Source: Niastella vici (GTDB lineage: Bacteria > Bacteroidota > Bacteroidia > Chitinophagales > Chitinophagaceae). From it: 64,000 nt of DNA. Positions 1,175 through 15,952 of this stretch are shown one piece after another. A program made the translations under genes and the position numbers. Each line of letters opens with the position of its first letter. The stretch's first letter is position 1. A model generated the notes under the pieces. The model worked only from the letters and a program-made list of their open reading frames with translations. It made no database searches and had not been told where the DNA came from. The DNA is taken from positions 1 to 64,000 of the forward strand of contig NZ_LVYD01000054.1 of NCBI RefSeq assembly GCF_002077945.1, in the 5' to 3' direction.

Positions 1175-1277
1175 TTGGTAACAACGTTTCGGGCAATTTC
1201 CGGAGGCCGGAAATTACAGTACGAATGCAAAATAAATAAGCATTGTCAAACCACGCTTTGGCAATTCGGTGTTAGGC
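1175..1277 (-). repeat. attC-like palindromic intergenic element
   Basis: About 100 bases between the DUF4365 stop and the membrane-protein gene. The ends are inverted repeats: TAACAACG at 1179-1186 and CGGTGTTA at 1267-1274 match at 7 of 8 positions. Inside is a perfect 9-bp hairpin, AATTTCCGG/CCGGAAATT (1195-1203 and 1207-1215), and a weaker one, AATGC/GCATT, around 1223-1243. The TAA stop of the DUF4365 gene lies within the terminal motif GCCTAACACCG. This architecture resembles integron attC or Bacteroidota cassette-separating elements. No IntI-type integrase is visible in the window. The element could also be a terminator or a REP-like repeat. Confidence 0.4.
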
Positions 1278-3245
1278 ACTATTATTATATTCTTCAATCC
1301 AGTACCCCCAATCCTTTAGAGGCACAAAAATATCGTAGCTCGGAGAACTCTCGAAGTTGAAGGACTTCTTGATAAGAACGTACCGGACAGGATGGTCGTA
1401 TCGTGGCACGTCTGGCACAGGTTGATATATCGAGCGGACGCCAATTTCATCCGGTGGGCACCGCTTGAATACCTCCTGGTAGCTATTAATCTCCCCGATC
1501 AAGTACCCGAGCTGGTTCGTCGACATGCCATCTTTACGACTTAGAAGTCTTGAGAGGATTTGGTTCTGCTCGTCGGTAAAATCAGCGATCACCTCGCCTT
1601 CTTTTGTCGCTTTCAGCCCGGCTCGCTCAAAAATGCCTGGCACCTGCAGATCAACAGGGTCCAACAACATCTCATCTTCCCATGTCTTCAACAATTCATA
1701 TAAGCCGTCGATGTCATGGTTAAGGGCTTTACCGAGTTTGAATCTACCAATCTCCAGCAACTCCAATGCGTTGCGTAGGGCAACGTAGGCTTCATACTTC
1801 ACGCCCTCCTCATTGAAATAGTTAACCGCATTGAGCGCCAGGTTGATATTCGCCTGGAGGTTCTTCTGAAAACCTTCAAAATTATTGCGCTCCGGTCGCA
1901 GGAACGAAGAGCCAATCTCCCGAGTCACCATGTGTTTGACATGGATCTGCAATGTATAGGCCCGTACCAATTTGCAACTCTGGCCTTCTACTCGCTTAGC
2001 AATCGTTTCGAGGAAATTCAACAACTCCTTGTCTAAAGCCATTATCCTTTGCATCGCCTGTACCCAATCGTTGAATGTCCCTAGATGTGCTGCTCTCGCG
2101 TTAACCGTAAAGGTGAGATTGATGAAAAGTGAGTAGTTGTCGGCATTCCAAAGATTCAACAGGAACTTTATCGAACCTGGAAGGTTCGACGCCTCTATTT
2201 GATCAAAGAGGGCAAAAATCTGCTGCCGGTATTTCTCAGTCACCGCATCCACGAACGTCCCGTTCGCCAATTGGGCCTGAAGCTGATTAACCGCAATGGT
2301 CAGCCTGCTTTGAGTGCTTAGCGGCCTTTCCTTCAGAGCAGCCATTTCTGTAATGGAATCTTCGAGTGATACTTTGCCGAGCTTAAACCGATTTTTTATG
2401 TCCTCATACAAGATCTGAATCCGTTGATCCTCTGTTAGATCGGATCTCCGCAATGCTTTTCGGCAAAGGACATGGGATTCATTAAACCTGCCGGCCTGGG
2501 AACGTGCCGTCGCAGCCAAGCATAGAATACTTGTATGCTCACTAATATCCTGGTCCGTCAACCTTGCAATCAGCCTCGAAACCTCTCCGAGCTGATAGTT
2601 GATCAAGAGATCCGTGCCATTCTTCTCCAAATATGAAATTATCCCTTGCGGACTATTAAGGTCAAAATCATCGGGCGAATACCGCATTGACGTCCGAGGG
2701 AGCCCATACAGCCCGCCATAAGAGTCGTTCATGCGGACCGCATTATTGAATACGCTCACCAACCAGGCATGCAAGGTAGGTATGGACTCGGAATCCAATT
2801 TATTGTTAGTTGGGACATGGATGTTCACGGTATCCTGTTGCTCCCAATCCGAGTTTCCTCGCTCGTCGAAAAGATGCTTAGTGATCAAAGAGGCCAGCTC
2901 GTAGTAACTTTGTTTCGTTTTGTAGTCATAAATAACAACCATGCCCAGGTTTGGCACGTTTACCCCAAGATAATGTAATCTGGATGTCTTGAAGCTGTAG
3001 GAAATCATCTGTCCTTGGTTGACGGTCTCGATCTCACTGACGCTTTTTAACTGAACCCCAAAATGCCAACCTCTGGCCTTCTGTCGCTCGGTAACCAACT
3101 CAACCATAAAGTCGACACCTGTGTCCCGCGGCAATGGGCGGCAAATAAAGCCGTTAGCCTGACTAAAGAGCGCCATTAGGGAAGTACTGCTTTCGTCAGC
3201 CCGTTCGGATGCATCGTCGACTTGGGGATAATCGGAAAACGCCAT
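1272..3245 (-). CDS. DUF4365 domain protein (putative PD-(D/E)XK nuclease)
   Basis: A 657-residue protein. Residues 20-150 fit the DUF4365 family: PRDTGVDFMVELV places Asp45 in a nuclease-like motif and GVQLKSV supplies the Q-x-K of the second strand (Gln65, Lys67). This is the active-site layout of restriction-endonuclease-fold proteins, and DUF4365 proteins are common in prokaryotic defence contexts. The remaining 500 residues are helical with leucine-rich repeats of TPR-like appearance and no recognised domain, so they may serve as a sensor or partner-binding region. A near-consensus promoter lies 7 bases upstream of the start, predicting a leaderless mRNA. The gene lies just outside the left repeat of the methylase island, in what may be an older neighbouring island. 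A single-gene defence role is an inference. Confidence 0.7.
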   Translation of the reverse strand: MAFSDYPQVDDASERADESSTSLMALFSQANGFICRPLPRDTGVDFMVELVTERQKARGWHFGVQLKSVSEIETVNQGQMISYSFKTSRLHYLGVNVPNLGMVVIYDYKTKQSYYELASLITKHLFDERGNSDWEQQDTVNIHVPTNNKLDSESIPTLHAWLVSVFNNAVRMNDSYGGLYGLPRTSMRYSPDDFDLNSPQGIISYLEKNGTDLLINYQLGEVSRLIARLTDQDISEHTSILCLAATARSQAGRFNESHVLCRKALRRSDLTEDQRIQILYEDIKNRFKLGKVSLEDSITEMAALKERPLSTQSRLTIAVNQLQAQLANGTFVDAVTEKYRQQIFALFDQIEASNLPGSIKFLLNLWNADNYSLFINLTFTVNARAAHLGTFNDWVQAMQRIMALDKELLNFLETIAKRVEGQSCKLVRAYTLQIHVKHMVTREIGSSFLRPERNNFEGFQKNLQANINLALNAVNYFNEEGVKYEAYVALRNALELLEIGRFKLGKALNHDIDGLYELLKTWEDEMLLDPVDLQVPGIFERAGLKATKEGEVIADFTDEQNQILSRLLSRKDGMSTNQLGYLIGEINSYQEVFKRCPPDEIGVRSIYQPVPDVPRYDHPVRYVLIKKSFNFESSPSYDIFVPLKDWGYWIEEYNNSA

Positions 3246-3916: not shown

Positions 3917-5095
3917 ATGTTGTTACCTATCAGAGCGATTTGCCGCAGCAAAAGAGTTAAGAAAGATGGAACTGCGCCGATATTTCTGCAATATTGCTAC
4001 AGCAGAACAAAGCGCACATTATTAAGCACAGGAATTGCTATACCGCCGGAATACTGGCAACGGAAGCAATTACGGATCTCCCCACAACTACCACCGCAGT
4101 TTGGCGATGCCTTAAAATTAAACGATGAACTACTCCGTCAAAAGCGATTGGTGGAAGACCTGGTTGCCGAAGCTACCAGAAAACAGATCACTGATAAAGG
4201 GACATTTGTAAAAAAGGCTTTTACTCCCACCCTCGATTTACAAGCCCTGGAAGAACGGATCACTATCGTCGCCAAACAGGAAACGGCAAAGAAAGAAGCG
4301 AAGCAGGATATTTATTGCCAGTTTGATGAATACATCAAGACGAAGGAAAGAAAGGTAAGCAAAGCCACGCTGACGGTATACGGTAACGTAAAAGCCCATT
4401 TACAGGCATTTGAAAAATACCGGCAGGAAAAGATCACCTTCGCCAGCTTTGATTTTAATTTCTATCACGACTTTATTGACTACCTCACCTTCGAGCATGT
4501 GCATATGCGTCGCCAGGAGGTATTAACGGGCTTAAAGCAGAACACCATTGGTAAAACCATCAAGCACCTGCGCGGCTTTCTTAAAGACCGGGTGAAAAGA
4601 AAGATCATTGCGCCCATTGACCTCACCGATTTTAAAATACCCGAAGAAGAATGTGATGCCATTTATTTAAGCCACCAGGAAATAGCCACTATTTACCAGG
4701 CTGACCTATCCGCCCATCCTCACCTGATCGAATACCGGGATCTGTTTGTGTTGGCCTGCTTAACCGGCTTGCGCTTCTCCGACTTCTCCACCTTAAAGCC
4801 GGAAGACCTGCAGCGGGATATGCTGTATAAGAAGCAGGAGAAATCCGATCACTGGGTGATCATTCCCCTGCGCGAAGAAGCCAAACATATCTTCACCCGG
4901 CAGTTTAAAGAAAAGATACCAGCGCTTACCAATCCCGAATTCAACCGCCACATCAAAACCATCGGCAAACTAGCTGGACTGAACCGCTCCATTAAATTCT
5001 CCTACAAAAAAGGAAACAAAAGTATTGAGGTCATAAAACCCAAGTACGACTGGATCACTTCGCATATTGGCCCGCCGATCATTTTGCACCAATGA
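3917..5095 (+). pseudogene. Tyrosine recombinase (Bacteroidota integrase), frameshifted and truncated
   Basis: A 392-residue remnant of a phage-integrase-family recombinase. It has an N-terminal arm-binding domain (about residues 5-90), a SAM-like core-binding domain (about 130-230) and part of the catalytic domain, with the first catalytic Arg in LTGLRFSDFSTL. Near the end the frame breaks at CCC (5071-5073). Dropping one C restores the family motif HIGRRSFCTN, with the second catalytic His and Arg. Even in that frame the homology stops after FCTND, and TAA follows at 5115-5117. The downstream S-G-H box and the nucleophilic Tyr are absent, so the enzyme should be inactive. Its place 130 bases inside the left repeat identifies it as the integrase of the island, which now seems unable to excise itself. 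Confidence 0.85.
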
Positions 5096-5754: not shown

Positions 5755-7299
5755 ATGATGATGAAAAGTAATTTAAAGCATGTGGATGCCTGCACCGTAG
5801 CCGAAGCGTTGTCAGATGATTTTAATGATATTGACCCGACAGGGATTATTGAACGAAAGATAGAGCGCTTCAGAAATGGTGAGAATTTAAGACTTCTGGA
5901 TTTGTTCTCAGGATGTGGTGGACTGTCGCTCGGATTCAGTAAGCAGGGGTATGAGAATATAGCAGCAGTGGAAATGGATCAGGAGGCGGCAACTTCTCAT
6001 GCGCTTAATTTCCATAAGGATCATCCGTTGTTTAAGCAGTATGCAAAGGCCCGGGACATTACCAAAACCACCCCCGCAGGTTTGTTTAAGGACCTGGGAC
6101 TGAAAGGCGAACCAGGAGACCAGGTGGATATTATTATTGGCGGGCCTCCCTGCCAGGCTTTTACCAGAATTGGAAGGGCCAAACTTCGTGCAGTATTTAG
6201 TGATGCAGATGCGTTTCTGAACGATCCAAGAAGCCAGTTGTATAAACGGTATCTGAAATATGTGAAAACCTTGCAGCCGCTGGCCATATTAATGGAGAAT
6301 GTGCCCGATATGCTGAATTATGGAGGGGTTAATATTGCTGATCTGGTTTGTGATGATCTGACAGAATACGGCTATACCTGTCGTTATACGTTATTAAATA
6401 CAGTGTATTATGGTCTCCCTCAGATGCGGGAAAGAATGTTTCTCATAGCCGTACATTCCAGCATTCGTGATGAAATTGAATTTCCATTACCAACACATTT
6501 CATTGATCTTCCCAGAGGGTATCACGGTTCAAGAAGCGTAGCCCTGAAACATATTGATAAAGACAATCAGCACCGGTATTACATGCCAATGCCTGAAGCA
6601 ACTTCTGATCTTTTACCTGCTGTATCGGCTGCCGTTGCCTTGTCTGATCTACCGGTGATAACGGCCCATTTGAAAAATGGTTTGAAGAACGGTATTAGAA
6701 AAATGGATGAGCAGATTTCATATTCTCAGGAAACTGCGCAGAATGCTTATCAGACCCTTATGAGAAAATGGCCGGGTTATGAAACTAACGGCTTTATATG
6801 TGGAAATGTAATCCGTATTCTGCCAAGAGACTATCCTGTATTCAAAAAAATGAAGGCTGGTGATCAGTATCCCCAGGCTTTGGCCATAGCAGTAAAGTCA
6901 TTTAAACGGAAACTGAAAAAGCTTGAAAAAGAACAGAAACGTAAGTTTTCAGAAAATTCAAAGGAGTACAAATTATTGCTGAAGCAAACAGTGCCACCCT
7001 ATGACGATAAAAAGTTTCCGAATAAATGGCGGAAAATGGAAGCGGACAAACCGGCCCGTACATTAATGGCGCACCTTGGTAAGGATAGCTATTCTCATAT
7101 CCATTATGACAGTAACCAGGCCCGCACCATTTCCGTTAGGGAGGCTGCCAGACTGCAATCTTTTCCTGACGGGTTTCAGTTTGCCGGTGCTATGAATGCT
7201 GCATTCCGGCAAATTGGGAACGCGGTGCCTCCATTAATGGCCGAACAACTTGCGGCTACAATCAAAAATATGCTTAATACTCCTTTAGATGTCAGATAA
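5755..7299 (+). CDS. dcm: DNA (cytosine-5-)-methyltransferase
   Basis: A 514-residue C5-cytosine methylase. Motif I is LLDLFSGCGGLSLGF (residues 47-61, SAM binding). Motif IV is GGPPCQAFTRIGR, with catalytic Cys133. Motif VI is ENVPDML. Motifs IX and X are RTISVREAARLQSFPDGFQF and FRQIGNAVPPLMAEQL near the C-terminus. It is longer than minimal methylases because of a target-recognition region of about 250 residues, including a Lys-rich stretch near residues 380-400. Its stop overlaps the ATPase start by 11 bases, making it the first gene of a five-gene operon. A Vsr endonuclease in the same island fits, because Vsr repairs T:G mismatches left by deamination of 5-methylcytosine. The methylase probably marks self DNA for the linked restriction-like system. 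Confidence 0.95.
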   Translation: MMMKSNLKHVDACTVAEALSDDFNDIDPTGIIERKIERFRNGENLRLLDLFSGCGGLSLGFSKQGYENIAAVEMDQEAATSHALNFHKDHPLFKQYAKARDITKTTPAGLFKDLGLKGEPGDQVDIIIGGPPCQAFTRIGRAKLRAVFSDADAFLNDPRSQLYKRYLKYVKTLQPLAILMENVPDMLNYGGVNIADLVCDDLTEYGYTCRYTLLNTVYYGLPQMRERMFLIAVHSSIRDEIEFPLPTHFIDLPRGYHGSRSVALKHIDKDNQHRYYMPMPEATSDLLPAVSAAVALSDLPVITAHLKNGLKNGIRKMDEQISYSQETAQNAYQTLMRKWPGYETNGFICGNVIRILPRDYPVFKKMKAGDQYPQALAIAVKSFKRKLKKLEKEQKRKFSENSKEYKLLLKQTVPPYDDKKFPNKWRKMEADKPARTLMAHLGKDSYSHIHYDSNQARTISVREAARLQSFPDGFQFAGAMNAAFRQIGNAVPPLMAEQLAATIKNMLNTPLDVR

Positions 7300-8782
7300 A
7301 AGCAATTTTCGCTATCTGAAGAAATTTAGGAAAGAAACAGTGGAGCCAAGGCCTGCTTCGTTGATTGAAACGTTCAGGGCTATTGGCTACAACCTTGCCA
7401 GTGCATTGGCTGATATTGTGGATAACAGTATATCTGCAGAGTGCAAATATGTACATATTAACTTTTTTTGGAAAAAAGAAGATACTTATATAACCATTCT
7501 GGATGACGGAAAAGGTATGAGCGAAGAAGAGCTGGTGGAGGCGCTACGGCCAGGCACTCATAATCCGCTGGGCGACCGGAAGAGCGAAGATCTGGGCAGG
7601 TTTGGTCTGGGATTAAAAACCGCCTCTTTTTCACAGTGCCGGGTGTTGTCTATAATTTCAAAGAATGCGGGTAACCCAAAGGTGCATTTGAGAGCTTGGC
7701 ATCTGGATTATGTGGAACACTATAACATCTGGGAGATCATTGAATATATTTCAATGCCCGAACTCAAAGACCTTCTGAAAAATAAATCTAAAGGGACGCT
7801 TGTTGTTTGGGAGAATCTGGACAGAATCATTTATGACCAGAATGGTCATCTGATTACACAACGTAAGTTTCTCGAAGCTGTTCGGGAAATTGAACATCAT
7901 TTATCAATGGTTTTTCACCGCTTTCTGGAATCGGGTAAAATAAAATTATTTATTAATGAACAGCCGGTTTCTGCCTGGGATCCATTTTTAAGAAAAGAAA
8001 GAGCCACACAGTCATTTCCTACAGAAACGTTTATGCAGGGGAAGATCTGTATCACCGGTTATGTTCTTCCTCATCCTTCTAAAACCACTGCTGAAGTGTG
8101 GAACGCTGCAGCAGGAACTGAAGGCTGGAATGCCAGTCAGGGATTTTATATCTACAGAAAGGATCGTATGCTGCTCGCAGGTGACTGGCTTGGCCTTTTA
8201 AAAAAGCAGGAATTCACCCGTCTGGCAAGGATAATGATCGATATTGATGCAGAACTGGATTTTGCCTGGCAACTGGACATTCGTAAATCAAGAGCCATAC
8301 CCCCAAAAATGTTCCAGGATGATCTGAAACGTTATGCGCTTGAAATAACGAAAAGCGCTATTGATGTATATAAGCACCGTGGCAAACAAAAGCAGCGGAA
8401 AGCGGGTCGCTCCCACTTTGAATTTGCTTGGATGACAGTTGAAGAGAATGGGCGGGAGTATTACAGGGTGAACAGAAATCATCCTCTGGTACGATCTATG
8501 GCAGAAAAAATGGGTACGAAGAAAAGCGACCTGGAGAAACTGTTGAAACTACTGGAGATAACCTTGCCTGTTCCGGCAATTGTGCTAAGTGAAAGTCAGC
8601 ATGCGGATAAACCAGCAGAATCGGGGACTCCTTCCAATGACAGTGAAGTGGCGGAATTGATGAAGGCAACTTATAAACAGTTGCTGCAGGATAAGCATAC
8701 CCGTTCGAAAGCGCTGGAAGAACTGTATTTTATTGATCCGTTCAGTAACTATCCTCACCTGATAGAAAGCCTGAGCAAGTAA
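7289..8782 (+). CDS. GHKL ATPase, MORC/MutL-like, of a restriction-like system
   Basis: A 497-residue protein with an N-terminal Bergerat-fold ATPase. The N-box is D42-IVD-N46, the G1 box is DDGKGM (72-77) and the G2 box is GRFGLGLKTAS (103-113). A transducer-like region follows, and the tail is helical. The pairing with a C5 methylase, Z1, AIPR and Vsr is the context described for MutL-like/MORC-ancestor ATPases in predicted restriction-modification systems. Such ATPases are thought to form ATP-driven dimer clamps on DNA. No MutL endonuclease motif is visible, so cleavage must come from a partner. It overlaps dcm by 11 bases, and the next gene begins 2 bases after its stop, so it is surely co-translated with both. 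Confidence 0.88.
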   Translation: MSDKSNFRYLKKFRKETVEPRPASLIETFRAIGYNLASALADIVDNSISAECKYVHINFFWKKEDTYITILDDGKGMSEEELVEALRPGTHNPLGDRKSEDLGRFGLGLKTASFSQCRVLSIISKNAGNPKVHLRAWHLDYVEHYNIWEIIEYISMPELKDLLKNKSKGTLVVWENLDRIIYDQNGHLITQRKFLEAVREIEHHLSMVFHRFLESGKIKLFINEQPVSAWDPFLRKERATQSFPTETFMQGKICITGYVLPHPSKTTAEVWNAAAGTEGWNASQGFYIYRKDRMLLAGDWLGLLKKQEFTRLARIMIDIDAELDFAWQLDIRKSRAIPPKMFQDDLKRYALEITKSAIDVYKHRGKQKQRKAGRSHFEFAWMTVEENGREYYRVNRNHPLVRSMAEKMGTKKSDLEKLLKLLEITLPVPAIVLSESQHADKPAESGTPSNDSEVAELMKATYKQLLQDKHTRSKALEELYFIDPFSNYPHLIESLSK

Positions 8783-8793
8783 TAATGTGCCAC

Positions 8794-9321
8794 ATGAAAA
8801 AAATGAATTTAAAAATTCTGGAAGATGGACAAAGTACGGGATTATCCGTACGGAATGGTGGTTTTATGGCAGAGGCAGCATCAGTTTGCCTGCATCATCA
8901 TTTACATCCATCGCGGGTAAATTTTGCTGTGGTGGGTGCCATTCAGGAATCTTACCAGTTATCACGATTAAAAACAGATGAATTAAGTATTAACAGCTTT
9001 GCTGATATAGACGAAGCGGCTCAGTTTGGTGCAATGGGTATTGCTGTGGCTCTCATTCACGATCAGAAAGGATGGAAAGTGAAGAGATCATGGAAAGGAA
9101 CCGGATTTGATTATTGGGTGGGAGATCAAAAAGAAAGTTATCCTTTTAAAGATACATTAAGATTGGAAGTGAGTGGTGATTTTAGGGGTACTGATGCCGA
9201 ACTGAGGCAGCGGCTTAAGAGCAAGCTTGAGCAAACGACCCGTTCAGACAGTACCAACCTGCCGGCCTATGCGGTTATAGTGGAATTCAGTAATCCTAAA
9301 AGTTTAACAGGAGCCCGATGA
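8794..9321 (+). CDS. Small nuclease-like protein of the Z1/AIPR operon
   Basis: A protein of about 175 residues from the ATG at 8794; an ATG at 8785 would add three residues. No family is named with certainty. The C-terminal half contains GTGFDYWVG followed 19 residues after its Asp by LRLEVSG. This is the spacing of a restriction-endonuclease-like G-x-D ... E-x-K site, with Ser in place of the usual Lys. The N-terminal half is helical and contains a His-rich patch (VCLHHHLHPS). Its stop overlaps the Z1 start (ATGA), so it is translationally coupled. It may be the restriction nuclease subunit or a structural partner of the Z1 helicase. The function is inferred only from motif and context. Confidence 0.6.
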   Translation: MKKMNLKILEDGQSTGLSVRNGGFMAEAASVCLHHHLHPSRVNFAVVGAIQESYQLSRLKTDELSINSFADIDEAAQFGAMGIAVALIHDQKGWKVKRSWKGTGFDYWVGDQKESYPFKDTLRLEVSGDFRGTDAELRQRLKSKLEQTTRSDSTNLPAYAVIVEFSNPKSLTGAR

Positions 9322-12300
9322 GCGATAACATTCATAAAATAAATACTTGGCATGAGGAGGCCATGGATTTTGCGGAGATGGCATTTTTTGCCGGCCGCCG
9401 AAGTGAACAATACAGTTACTGGAAATACATTCAGCGCGCTTTAAACTATGAAAAGGCAGCTGCCAGATTGCTGAAAGATATTGACGATTCGGAACCTTCC
9501 AGATCTGTTTTGTACCAGGGGGCGGTACATTTTGCCTTAAACCTGGATAATTTTGAGGAGGCAAAAATATTACTCGCAGAGGCTTTGGAGGGCAATCCTC
9601 CTGCAGAGATCAGAGAAGATCTGGAATTGCAACTGAGCCTGCTTGGACGACGGGAAAAAATCAGAAATAGAATAGCTGACGATGCTCAAAAAAATCTCAG
9701 CTATCTGGAAGATGAAACAGACCCTGAGCGTGAAGATATTAACCATGCGCTTAATGCGGCAATTACAGGGGCAGAAGCTTTTTTGGGTAAGCAAATAATC
9801 TCACAGCTATTAAACAGACCTGCTTTACAAGTGTTACTGGAGAGTAAAAATCTTGTATCGAACCCAAATTATCAGATATTCGAAAACCAGAAGCCCAATG
9901 AGAAGTGGGTTGAGGGAAGAGGGGCAAAGATTACTTGGAATTTTTGGAAGGCATATAAGGAATACCTGGATCATAAGGGAATTGCAGCCTCTACTATTAC
10001 CAAACTGGACCATCTGACTGATGATATCCTGAACCGGATTGGAGACCCCAATAAGCCAGGCGTGTGGGATAAAAGAGGAATGGTTGTTGGCGATGTTCAG
10101 TCTGGTAAAACCAGTAATTATATTGGTTTAATAAATAAGGCCGCTGATGCAGGATTCCGTATCATTATTATTCTTAGCGGTCTTTATGAGAACCTCAGGC
10201 AACAAACCCAACAACGTGTGGATGAAGGATTTTCAGGATTTATGTCCGCCCCTGGCAGCAACAGTGAAATAATTGGAGTGGGTAAGCACAGGAAAAGCTT
10301 TCCTGTACATCCGATTACACACACTAAAGACGGAGGAGATCTGCGTGCTTCCTCACTTCGAAACCTGCCACTGAATACGAACGATTATTACGCCATTGTT
10401 ATTAAGAAAAATGCTTCGGTATTAAAAAATTTGCTGACTTGGCTGTATGCAAGGGGTGAAAAGGACGGGGAGTATCAGATCATTAAAAACATTCCGCTTT
10501 TGATTATTGATGACGAGGCTGATTACGCTTCTATAAATGTGGACAAGGATTTTGTTTCACGAATTAACGGATATATTCGCTCCACGCTGGGACTTTTTGA
10601 GCAAAGTGCTTTTATTGGTTATACCGCCACGCCTTTTGCAAATATATTTATGTCAGACCCAAATGATACGGAGGGAAAAGATATAATTATTGATGGTAAA
10701 AAGTTCCGGTTGGGCGATGAGCTGTTTCCGCGTGACTTTATTATAAATATTCCCCCACCTTCCAATTATATTGGTTATACGAAGGTGTTTGACACGGAGA
10801 CCTGGCCGGAAGCTGAAGAAGAGAGTTTACCACTTGTAAATGAAATTGATGATTTTGAACCTTATATTCCCCAGACACACCGGAAAGATGATGATCTGCC
10901 GGCAGCACTACCCCCAAGCCTTGAATATGCTGTTTATTGTTTCATTATTGTTTGTGCTGTACGGATAGCACGCGGACGTGAAAAAGAGCATAACTCAATG
11001 CTGGTTCATGTGTCTTGGTATGTAATATGGATTAACCGGGTGGCTCTTCTGATCAATACTTGGTTATCCGCCGTTAAGGATAGTATCCGTTATGATCAGG
11101 GCGGAGCAGTTGCTAAGACATTAAAAGAGGTTTGGGAAAAAGAATATAAAGGACGTACTCATGTGGTGGCTGAACGCCTGGGGTACGATGATCCACGTTT
11201 AATAGATCATGACTGGGACGAGATACTGCCTTTCCTGTGCCAGGCGGCTGAAAAAATTGAAGTTCGCGCTGTTCACGGGGCTCAAAGAGGGTTGCCTTAC
11301 GATAACACCACGCCGCTGAATTATCATGAATATGACAATGGTTTATCGGTGATTGCAGTCGGTGGTAATAAACTTTCGAGGGGTTTAACACTTGAAGGTC
11401 TCTCTGTAAGCTATTTTTTAAGGGCTACCAAATTTTATGACACACTGCTTCAAATGGGGCGTTGGTTTGGCTACCGATCTGGTTATGCAGATGTATGCCG
11501 TTTATTTACCACCGAAGAACTTATCACTTGGTATCAGTACATTGGCAATGCCACTGATGAACTTAAGGAACAGTTTGATATTATGAATCTGGCAGACAGA
11601 ATACCCCGAAACTTCGGATTTAAAGTACGTTCGGCGCCAGGCATGCTGATGATCTCAGCTGCTGCCAAAATTAAAGGGGCCACCGATCTGAATCTGAGTT
11701 ATTCAGGCGAACTGCTGGAAACTTATATAATCAGTAAAGACCGGGATACGTTAAGGAAAAATCTGAGTGTCATAAAAGAACTGGTAACATCTCTGCCGGC
11801 GCTATCCGGTAAAGTGCGGCAGGGCCAATCTTATATCTGGGAGAATATTCCATTTAAACCGGTTGATGCTTTTCTTGAACACTATCTCACAAAACAATCC
11901 AATATCCGTCCGGATTTTATCCGTAGTTATATTGCCAACCAAGTGAGAAAAGGAAATCTTATAAATTGGACAATTGTACTAATCAGTAATTCATCTCCCC
12001 AAAATTCATATGAATTAGCTACCGCTGAAAGCATGTTAGAGGTAGGGTTAACAAAACGTCAGGAGGCAATACATAAGAAAAATGGTGTTGAAACAGTAGA
12101 TCCTGTGAATTATATCATCCGCCAATCACATATCATCAGTCCTCCGCATGAATATCTGGATATGGAAGAATCGGATGAGCGCTATCTGAAAGCCAAAGAT
12201 GAAACCATACAAAACAGCCGATCAAGGGCAACTCCTAAAAATCCTGGCGGTAAATATGTAAGAAAGTACAGGGGAAGTCAAAACGCGCTTCTTATAATAT

Positions 12301-12485
12301 ACCTGCTGGATCCAACAGGGTTTAACGGTGATAAGGATTTACCAGCCACAGGTTATGCGATCGGCCTGCCTCAAATTGAAGGAGATACCAAACTTCCTTA
12401 CAAAGTAAATGACGTGTTTATGCAGGAGTTGTTCAGCTATCCGGAAGATGCTGAGGAGAACCCTGAAACGGAAGATGAAATATAA
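9318..12485 (+). CDS. Z1 domain SF2-type helicase/ATPase
   Basis: A 1055-residue protein. An N-terminal helical, TPR-like region of about 150 residues precedes the ATPase. Walker A is GDVQSGKTSNYIGL near residue 258, and Walker B is LIIDDEADYASIN near 397. The motif III equivalent is YTATPFANIF near 433. The Z1 domain contains GGNKLSRGLTLEGL and the motif VI-like QMGRWFGYR near 711. Z1 domains are known from predicted restriction systems linked to MutL-like ATPases and AIPR proteins. The probable role is ATP-driven DNA translocation or unwinding that feeds a nuclease. The gene is coupled to the preceding one by a 4-base overlap and sits 6 bases before the AIPR gene. The C-terminus ends in an acidic tail (EDAEENPETEDE). 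Confidence 0.9.
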   Translation: MSDNIHKINTWHEEAMDFAEMAFFAGRRSEQYSYWKYIQRALNYEKAAARLLKDIDDSEPSRSVLYQGAVHFALNLDNFEEAKILLAEALEGNPPAEIREDLELQLSLLGRREKIRNRIADDAQKNLSYLEDETDPEREDINHALNAAITGAEAFLGKQIISQLLNRPALQVLLESKNLVSNPNYQIFENQKPNEKWVEGRGAKITWNFWKAYKEYLDHKGIAASTITKLDHLTDDILNRIGDPNKPGVWDKRGMVVGDVQSGKTSNYIGLINKAADAGFRIIIILSGLYENLRQQTQQRVDEGFSGFMSAPGSNSEIIGVGKHRKSFPVHPITHTKDGGDLRASSLRNLPLNTNDYYAIVIKKNASVLKNLLTWLYARGEKDGEYQIIKNIPLLIIDDEADYASINVDKDFVSRINGYIRSTLGLFEQSAFIGYTATPFANIFMSDPNDTEGKDIIIDGKKFRLGDELFPRDFIINIPPPSNYIGYTKVFDTETWPEAEEESLPLVNEIDDFEPYIPQTHRKDDDLPAALPPSLEYAVYCFIIVCAVRIARGREKEHNSMLVHVSWYVIWINRVALLINTWLSAVKDSIRYDQGGAVAKTLKEVWEKEYKGRTHVVAERLGYDDPRLIDHDWDEILPFLCQAAEKIEVRAVHGAQRGLPYDNTTPLNYHEYDNGLSVIAVGGNKLSRGLTLEGLSVSYFLRATKFYDTLLQMGRWFGYRSGYADVCRLFTTEELITWYQYIGNATDELKEQFDIMNLADRIPRNFGFKVRSAPGMLMISAAAKIKGATDLNLSYSGELLETYIISKDRDTLRKNLSVIKELVTSLPALSGKVRQGQSYIWENIPFKPVDAFLEHYLTKQSNIRPDFIRSYIANQVRKGNLINWTIVLISNSSPQNSYELATAESMLEVGLTKRQEAIHKKNGVETVDPVNYIIRQSHIISPPHEYLDMEESDERYLKAKDETIQNSRSRATPKNPGGKYVRKYRGSQNALLIIYLLDPTGFNGDKDLPATGYAIGLPQIEGDTKLPYKVNDVFMQELFSYPEDAEENPETEDEI

Positions 12486-12491
12486 GCTGTT

Positions 12492-14552
12492 ATGAAGCAA
12501 TTACCATCAGAGTTAAGCAATTTTTCAGCGTTTTTAAATGCAGAGGTATCAAATCTGCTGCAATCAAAAAAGGATGCGGGGTTCAGGGAGGTTGCCTTTA
12601 CAGAGCTGGTGCTGGATTACCTTTCAGATACAAACGAAACTTCAAACGGGCAGATTTGTACTGCAGTTCACAGAAACAAGGCAGGAAACCGGTTACGACA
12701 AATAAACGCATACAGCATATGGGATAATTATGAAACACTGGATCTGTTTATTACAGATTTCAATGGTTCTGGAGAAGTATACACACTTGACAAAAGCAAG
12801 GTGGAAAGTAATTTTAATCTGGCACTCAAATACCTTGGTTACGCAATAAAAGGAAAAACAGAAGAGCTGGAGGAGTCGGCACCGGAAACAGAGTTTCTGC
12901 AAAACTTTAATGAGTACCGCAGCCAGTTGTTAAGGGTGAGAATTATCTTGCTAACTGATGGTGTTGTAAAATCAAAGCTTTCAAGACCTAAGACCAAGGA
13001 GGGCGACCTCACTGTTCTTTTTGATGTGTGGGATGTGGAACGGATTAATCAGTTGTGGTCTTCACAGAGAAAACGGGAAATAATTGAAATAGATGTTCAC
13101 AAGCAATTCAACTACCAGATTAAATATTTGCCTCTTACGCAAAAAACAGAGAGTTACAGTACTTATGTTTCCATTATTCCGGCCAGTCTTTTAGCTGATC
13201 TTTATGATGAATATGGAACGCGATTGCTTGAACAGAATGTGCGCGTGTATTTGCAAAATGTAGGGAAAGTAAATAAGGAAATCAGGAAAACCATATTGGA
13301 AAAACCTGAAATGTTCATGGCTTACAATAATGGTATTTCGGCCACAGCAACTGCCATAAGTTTTGACAAAGCTAACAATGGTAATGGAGTGGAATTAATT
13401 AAGAAAATATCAGGTTTCCAGATTGTAAATGGTGGCCAAACCACTTCATCTGTTTATTATGCAAGAAAAAAAGACAGAGCTGATCTTAGTAAAGTTTATG
13501 TACAAATTAAAATCACGCTGGTCCATAAAGAAGAAGAGATGGAGAAAATTGTTTCCAGCATTTCAAAATATGCGAATAGTCAAAATAAGGTAAGCGAAAT
13601 TGATCTGACCTCCAATCAAGCTTTTCATGTTGTTCTTGAAGAGTTTTCCCGCACCACCTGGGCACCGCCGGTTCAGGGAAGTACTCAGCAAACGCGTTGG
13701 TTTTATGAACGCGTGAAAGGTCAATACAAAGAGGAACTGAATAAAGAACATACAGGGGCCCGCAAAAAGAATTTTAAAAAGAGAAATCCTGCGCACCAAG
13801 TGATCAAGAAAGAGGAAGTTGCAAAATATAGGAATGCTTGGTTTCAATTGCCTCATTTGGTGTCGAGGGGCAGTCAGAAAAACTATCTTTACTTTATTCA
13901 GGCGAATGGGAATAAAAAACCCTCACGCATTTATTTCAGAGAAACTGTTGCAATGGCTCTTTTTTTTAATGAAGCTGAAAAACTTTATGGGAAAAAACCA
14001 TACGCTTTAGGTGATTTGCGTTACATAGCAATTCCATATGCCATCTCCTGGTTGAATTGTCATTTACCTAAAGATATTAACCTTGGAAAAATATGGACAG
14101 CTCAGCGCCTATCTCCTGAATTAAGCACCTTACTGCTGGATGTTTTAAAGCATGTAAATATCTTTTTTCAAGAGAAGAAACCTGCTTCGTATTCTCTAAT
14201 GGGGGAATGGGCTAAACGAGACGAATGCTGGCAGCTATTAAAAAGCATCAGCCCAAAAAGGTGGGGCATTGATTTTAAATCTGTTTCAAAGGATCTGAAT
14301 CAGACGGCTTCGGAAAAAGAGGATGATGCAGATCTAGAGAACAGAATGGTATCGATTCCTTTAGAGAACTGGGAATTGATTGAAGAATTTGGAAAAAACA
14401 AAGGCAAATTCAGTCCATTGCAAATAGGAGTTATTAAGAATGTAATTAGCTCTATCAGAAAGGAGAAAGCAATGAGTAGTCAGCTTATTTCAGGCGCCAG
14501 AGAAATTCTGGCTATTTATAACCGGAAAGTCAAAGATCCGATTTACTTTTAA
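12492..14552 (+). CDS. AIPR family protein (abortive-infection phage resistance)
   Basis: A 686-residue protein. The AIPR domain covers about residues 230-560, with the hallmark stretches FMAYNNGISATATAI, GFQIVNGGQTTSS and SSISKYANSQNKVSEIDL. The family is named after an abortive-infection protein and recurs with Z1, GHKL ATPases and methylases in predicted defence loci. Its biochemical activity is not settled. The N-terminal region of about 220 residues may carry a divergent nuclease fold, but I cannot assign catalytic residues. It is the last gene of the plus-strand operon, and its 3' end overlaps the convergent HNH gene by 23 bases. That leaves no room for a terminator and could cause transcriptional interference between the two units. 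Confidence 0.88.
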   Translation: MKQLPSELSNFSAFLNAEVSNLLQSKKDAGFREVAFTELVLDYLSDTNETSNGQICTAVHRNKAGNRLRQINAYSIWDNYETLDLFITDFNGSGEVYTLDKSKVESNFNLALKYLGYAIKGKTEELEESAPETEFLQNFNEYRSQLLRVRIILLTDGVVKSKLSRPKTKEGDLTVLFDVWDVERINQLWSSQRKREIIEIDVHKQFNYQIKYLPLTQKTESYSTYVSIIPASLLADLYDEYGTRLLEQNVRVYLQNVGKVNKEIRKTILEKPEMFMAYNNGISATATAISFDKANNGNGVELIKKISGFQIVNGGQTTSSVYYARKKDRADLSKVYVQIKITLVHKEEEMEKIVSSISKYANSQNKVSEIDLTSNQAFHVVLEEFSRTTWAPPVQGSTQQTRWFYERVKGQYKEELNKEHTGARKKNFKKRNPAHQVIKKEEVAKYRNAWFQLPHLVSRGSQKNYLYFIQANGNKKPSRIYFRETVAMALFFNEAEKLYGKKPYALGDLRYIAIPYAISWLNCHLPKDINLGKIWTAQRLSPELSTLLLDVLKHVNIFFQEKKPASYSLMGEWAKRDECWQLLKSISPKRWGIDFKSVSKDLNQTASEKEDDADLENRMVSIPLENWELIEEFGKNKGKFSPLQIGVIKNVISSIRKEKAMSSQLISGAREILAIYNRKVKDPIYF

Positions 14553-15531
14553 ACTCTTTCCATCGCTTTATTAAGGCTTTTGTGGATGGATTGAATTTTT
14601 TGTTTCTCAACTTAATGCTCTTTCCTTCGAGCTTTTCATAATAAGAGTTCCGTAGAGAGGAATGCAGATGAACTTTCATGGTCTCCGGATGAATACCGAA
14701 TAAATTGGCATCAAACAGGCTGTGAATGTCTTTTCTCAATAATAATCCATTGGCCGGATGATGGTCTTTTTTTCCTCTGTAGAAGCAAATATGACTGGCT
14801 TCAATAGTTTCTTTTATGTTACATCCTGTTAACATACATGTATCCCCATAAATGCCAAGTAGCTGCTCCTTAAATCGTTGCTGACCCTGCCTTGATGGAG
14901 TCTTTCTCAGTTTGTAAGTGCGTGTGTCTGCGCTATCTGGTTCGTAAGGGTGCAATACAGGTATTTCGAAAGCTGGCTTTGGAGCTATGGCAGTGGTCTT
15001 ATTTTTAAGCCTGTTATATATCGGCCGAAAGTTGTCATTGAGAAATGTGACTTCTGCAGGCTGAATAGAATAATAGAGGTTCCATCGTATAAAGTAAGCT
15101 CTGAGAATTTTAACATCTGTTTTGGGTGGAGCTGGAATAAAAGAGCTGTTATAATGAGCTGTATATTCGTTCACCAGAATATTTTGTTCAATTGGATTAT
15201 CAAATTCGTGTTTATTCCGGCATTTGTACGTTGGTGTTATCCCGACTCTTTTATAATGTTCCTGAGTGTTGCACTCAGGACAGCGATATCTGACCTTTGG
15301 AACGTTTTTTCGTTCCATTACAGAATTTATTTTCGCAAAGCCCAGGATGTATTTTTTGTTTACAATCACCACATAATCATTTACTTTAACCTTGTCGTGA
15401 TTTTTCACGTTTGTATCATAAACATATACAGCATCTACTTTATCTGCATATCCGGTGTTTCCTCCAAATGCGCTATTTTCTCCTTTTGATTTAAGAATCC
15501 ACAAATTTGCCGGGCTTGTTTTTTCAGGCAT
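14530..15531 (-). CDS. HNH endonuclease with N-terminal EVE/PUA-like region and Zn-ribbon
   Basis: A 333-residue protein. Residues 5-75 (LWILKSKGEN, then DYVVIVNKKYILGFAKI) resemble the small beta-barrel EVE/PUA-like modules that read modified bases; this assignment is tentative. Residues 80-110 form a Zn-ribbon (RCPECNTQEH and KCRNKHEF). The C-terminal third is an HNH_2-type nuclease: CMLTGC, EASHICFYR, HPANGLLLRKDIHSLFD. A DNA-modification reader fused to HNH is the McrA-like design. Beside a C5 methylase, it may instead sense unmethylated sites. It is transcribed with vsr (4-base gap), opposite to the methylase operon, and is the best candidate for the cutting subunit of the island. Confidence 0.82.
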   Translation of the reverse strand: MPEKTSPANLWILKSKGENSAFGGNTGYADKVDAVYVYDTNVKNHDKVKVNDYVVIVNKKYILGFAKINSVMERKNVPKVRYRCPECNTQEHYKRVGITPTYKCRNKHEFDNPIEQNILVNEYTAHYNSSFIPAPPKTDVKILRAYFIRWNLYYSIQPAEVTFLNDNFRPIYNRLKNKTTAIAPKPAFEIPVLHPYEPDSADTRTYKLRKTPSRQGQQRFKEQLLGIYGDTCMLTGCNIKETIEASHICFYRGKKDHHPANGLLLRKDIHSLFDANLFGIHPETMKVHLHSSLRNSYYEKLEGKSIKLRNKKFNPSTKALIKRWKEFKSKSDL

Positions 15532-15535
15532 CTGA

Positions 15536-15952
15536 CTATTGTTTTTTTAGTATGGATATTAACTTTTGAAGTTCTTTTACTGTCTTATCTTTTAAGTCAC
15601 ATTCCCAGATTTCAAACACTTTCCAGCCAGCCGCAATAAGTTTTTCTTTATTTTGTTCGTCAAGAAGTTTAGTTCTGTTGATCTTATCTATCCACCAATC
15701 CTTTCGTGTTGATGGAATTTTGAAGTATTTACAGCCGTCGTGTCCATGCCAGAAACATCCATGTACAAATAACACCGTTTTATATTTACTTAAAACAACA
15801 TCAGGTCTACCTGGCAGGCTTTTAACATGTAACCGGTATCTGAACCCGTTTGCAAACAGAAATTTTCGCAGAATCATTTCGGGCTTCGTGTTAGTGCCTT
15901 TGATCCGGCTCATATTGAAACTTCGTATTTCCTTTGAATGAACATCTGCCAT
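15536..15952 (-). CDS. vsr: Very short patch repair endonuclease Vsr
   Basis: A 138-residue Vsr endonuclease counted from the ATG at 15950-15952. An upstream in-frame ATG would add 38 residues unlike the family, and the MADVHSKEIRSFNMSRIKG start matches Vsr proteins. Visible signatures are MSRIKGTNTKPE, GRPDVVL with catalytic Asp51, and FVHGCFWHGHDGCKYFKIP with the zinc- and DNA-contacting Cys/His residues. The enzyme nicks 5' of the T in T:G mismatches arising from 5-methylcytosine deamination, so it protects the sites methylated by the island Dcm. It is the first gene of the minus-strand vsr-HNH unit. A -7 box lies only 4 bases before the start, suggesting a leaderless transcript. Confidence 0.94.
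   Translation of the reverse strand: MADVHSKEIRSFNMSRIKGTNTKPEMILRKFLFANGFRYRLHVKSLPGRPDVVLSKYKTVLFVHGCFWHGHDGCKYFKIPSTRKDWWIDKINRTKLLDEQNKEKLIAAGWKVFEIWECDLKDKTVKELQKLISILKKQ

Follow-up and report, generated by a model that had tools for sequence, protein, structure and literature searches.

An MZA-like restriction cluster of Niastella vici with an S-TPR cassette in place of MzaD

The first 64,000 nucleotides (nt) of Niastella vici contig NZ_LVYD01000054.1 (hereafter, the window) contain a compact gene cluster at positions 5755..15952, in which five coupled plus-strand genes are followed by a convergent HNH-Vsr pair. This arrangement, described in an earlier note made from the sequence alone, was confirmed, with matches to PF00145, HATPase_c_3, PF10593, PF10592, HNH_2, and PF03852; the profile and defence-system searches proposed there gave the matches reported below. 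The first gene (5755..7299, +) encodes a Dcm-type C5-cytosine DNA methyltransferase of 514 amino acids (aa; PF00145, E 1.1e-57; TIGR00675, 174.6 bits, above the cut-off) that is 64% and 63% identical, over nearly the full length, to its counterparts in loci L038 and L039. It is followed by genes for a 497-aa MORC/MutL-like GHKL ATPase (7289..8782, +; HATPase_c_3, E 1.2e-31; PADLOC MzaB, E 1.8e-98), which retains the DDGKGM and GRFGLGLKTA motifs; a small 178-aa protein, denoted S (8785..9321, +); a Z1 helicase resembling MzaC (9318..12485, +; PF10593, E 1.5e-73), which carries a TPR-like domain (9318..9707, +); and a 686-aa MzaE-like AIPR protein (12492..14552, +; PF10592, E 1.1e-90; PF22879, E 6.4e-33), for which PADLOC ranks AbiU (E 2e-24) second after MzaE.

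S contains the alpha-beta-beta-beta-alpha-beta core of the PD-(D/E)XK nuclease superfamily, with the residues D109...E128-x-S130. Both D109 and E128 are conserved in all 63 relatives, and position 130 is Ser, not Lys, in every one of them; at position 80, Gln replaces Glu in the window and in loci L037 and L040. Pfam, PADLOC, NCBIfam, and PHROGs yielded no match of S to a known defence protein, and a profile search against PDB sequences gave nothing credible (one match, E 4.2); folds that VIA did not list for S or for the HNH protein carry no evidential value. S is not an isolated oddity of this genome: in one scan of a genome collection, 166 of the 184 pattern-matched stretches encode relatives, of which the best 80 were kept. 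A phage origin of S was rejected, with no match among 50,697 phage records and three matches in viral contigs.

The TPR-like domain was delineated by BLAST and HMM matches to open reading frames (ORFs) located 3' of S, and its label derives from weak Pfam matches (TPR_19, E 0.014). In many unrelated bacteria, S and this helper form a solitary two-part module, whereas here the helper half is fused to the helicase of the cluster. Such fusions were found in seven loci (the window, L037, L038, L039, L040, L045, and L048), and the domain had no match in the stretches retrieved for 13 MzaB loci lacking S. No common partner gene of the solitary pairs emerged: among the 25 families listed, commonest first, none occurs in more than three members, in a survey of 86 of the 146 listed neighbours, all same-strand, from which a few of extreme length, long or short, were omitted. 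A Hymenobacter plasmid (L034:9528-10433) encodes, following S, a TPR-like domain joined to a WcaJ-type sugar transferase domain; such a partner would not be expected for a nuclease-like protein. In several phyla, the partner bears an extra part of about 250 aa (23 TPR ORFs; L043, L050, L052-L054, L058, L060-L062, L064, and others), with no confident Pfam match in the five scanned.

Among the closest known systems is MZA (MzaABCDE), reportedly originating with Gao et al. 2020. The ATPase, helicase, and AIPR protein of the window resemble MzaB, MzaC, and MzaE, respectively, but score far below the equivalog cut-offs of the NCBIfam profiles (NF041931-NF041935): 407 against 850 bits, 580 against 1500, and 369.5 against 1050. 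The MzaB cut-off was exceeded in none of the 395 genomes searched, and in the comparison locus L023, MzaC, MzaD, and MzaE likewise fall below theirs. Unlike MZA, the contig of the window encodes no MzaA (seven sub-cut-off matches all lie elsewhere in the genome), and MzaD has no match in this genome or in any of the seven fused loci.

The HNH_2 nuclease (14530..15531, -; 333 aa; HNH_2, E 4.6e-11) has a putative N-terminal EVE/PUA-like domain with a Zn-ribbon-like insert, and the Vsr mismatch endonuclease (15536..15952, -; PF03852, E 2.1e-34; TIGR00632, 139.9 bits, above the cut-off) is encoded 4 nt 5' of it on the same strand. The structure prediction for the HNH protein is weak, with an input of only three sequences, and nothing beyond the fold class of the N-terminus was drawn from it. 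Its profile match to 6yex (E 4.4e-6), an HNH nuclease of the VcaM4I kind, and its predicted domain order link it to the EVE-HNH modification-dependent endonuclease VcaM4I (PMC7897488), which is also its best match by structure and from which it differs in the insert and in the neighbouring C5 methylase system. No relatives were confirmed in viral contigs. Just 5' of the MZA-like locus of Mucilaginibacter sp. dw_454 (L038:1409-3548), a second C5 methylase immediately precedes a winged-helix HNH protein.

A role for S as an adaptor or regulator that binds the TPR domain and does not itself cut, with cleavage left to the AIPR protein or EVE-HNH here and to an AspBHI-type or Mrr-like nuclease in sister systems, appears rather unlikely. 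The invariant E-x-S in place of E-x-K and the Gln at position 80 would fit it, as would the further nuclease candidate in each fused locus: EVE-HNH in the window, L038, and L039; RE_AspBHI_N with Mrr_cat in L037 and L040; and Mrr-like proteins, judged by eye, in L045 (no Pfam match) and L048 (PF04471, E 0.0011, below the cut-off). Against it stand the retention of D109 and E128 throughout and the occurrence of S where MzaD is absent.

The Vsr-HNH pair might tentatively be viewed as an independent type IV (modification-dependent) passenger outside the machine, which Dcm methylation may keep silent or make tolerable to the cell, in the manner of the PcaRCI/PcaRCII conflict; silencing of a methylation-dependent HNH by a Dcm-type methylase has a precedent (PMC8989522). 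The earlier note suggested that the HNH and the small D...E-x-S protein, as the nuclease set, may define a variant. S is present in all seven fused loci; four of them lack a member of this HNH family, as would fit a passenger. At L146:10214-17712, a full-length HNH relative and a DUF6602 gene have as neighbours a HEF_HK paraMORC-like kinase, a Response_reg_2 protein, and Dcm, so that the family adjoins two different Dcm/GHKL systems. This resembles the HEF_HK/Response_reg_2 paraMORC restriction loci, near whose Response_reg_2 genes HNH_2 is the best-represented endonuclease domain (PMC8011034). Other relatives reside on plasmids of actinobacteria; of the 800 plasmid records that matched, 6 cover at least 80% of the protein, and five contexts were viewed. 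However, the HNH gene overlaps the convergent AIPR gene at the 3' end by 23 nt in the window and by 28 nt in each of the two Mucilaginibacter genomes, a conserved arrangement that argues against a passenger.

The general type had been foreseen, as the earlier note stated, in comparative work on MORC homologues: the ATPase and helicase match the third type of MORC and SF2-helicase restriction-modification operon (Iyer, Abhiman, Aravind 2008; PMC2292703), in which a MORC ATPase accompanies a distinct SF2 helicase with a D-T-x-x-Q-x-x-R-x-F-G motif, methylases and Vsr often occur, and AIPR appears in a figure legend. CglI and NgoAVII, also among the closest known systems, differ in that they use a PLD-type nuclease with a B3 domain and, comprising only three genes, therefore lack MORC, AIPR, and S-TPR (PMC4267653).

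Just 5' of the cluster, a tyrosine recombinase ORF (3917-5095, +) appears broken at its 3' end because the catalytic-domain match is limited to profile positions 3-86 of 172. Also next to the cluster, the gene at 1272-3245 (-) encodes a protein of 657 aa that has a DUF4365 domain at its N-terminus (PF14280, E 9.6e-17) and is possibly a further defence gene. The window contains no tRNA, and a promoter scan was uninformative (32 promoter-like sites against 32.3 expected).

Overall, the interpretation in the earlier note is supported in part. The fusion of the TPR-like domain to the helicase recurs. No second locus of the window type was found among 344 genomes of the same family. The cluster is a bacterial DNA-restriction system of a broad kind already known, probably with an anti-virus role. 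The predicted DNA-cutting part usual for such clusters is absent, and the small module of S and its TPR-like helper occupies that place. The cluster is thus a clear new variant of an established kind of system, its rare feature being the exchange of MzaD for a widely distributed S-TPR cassette.
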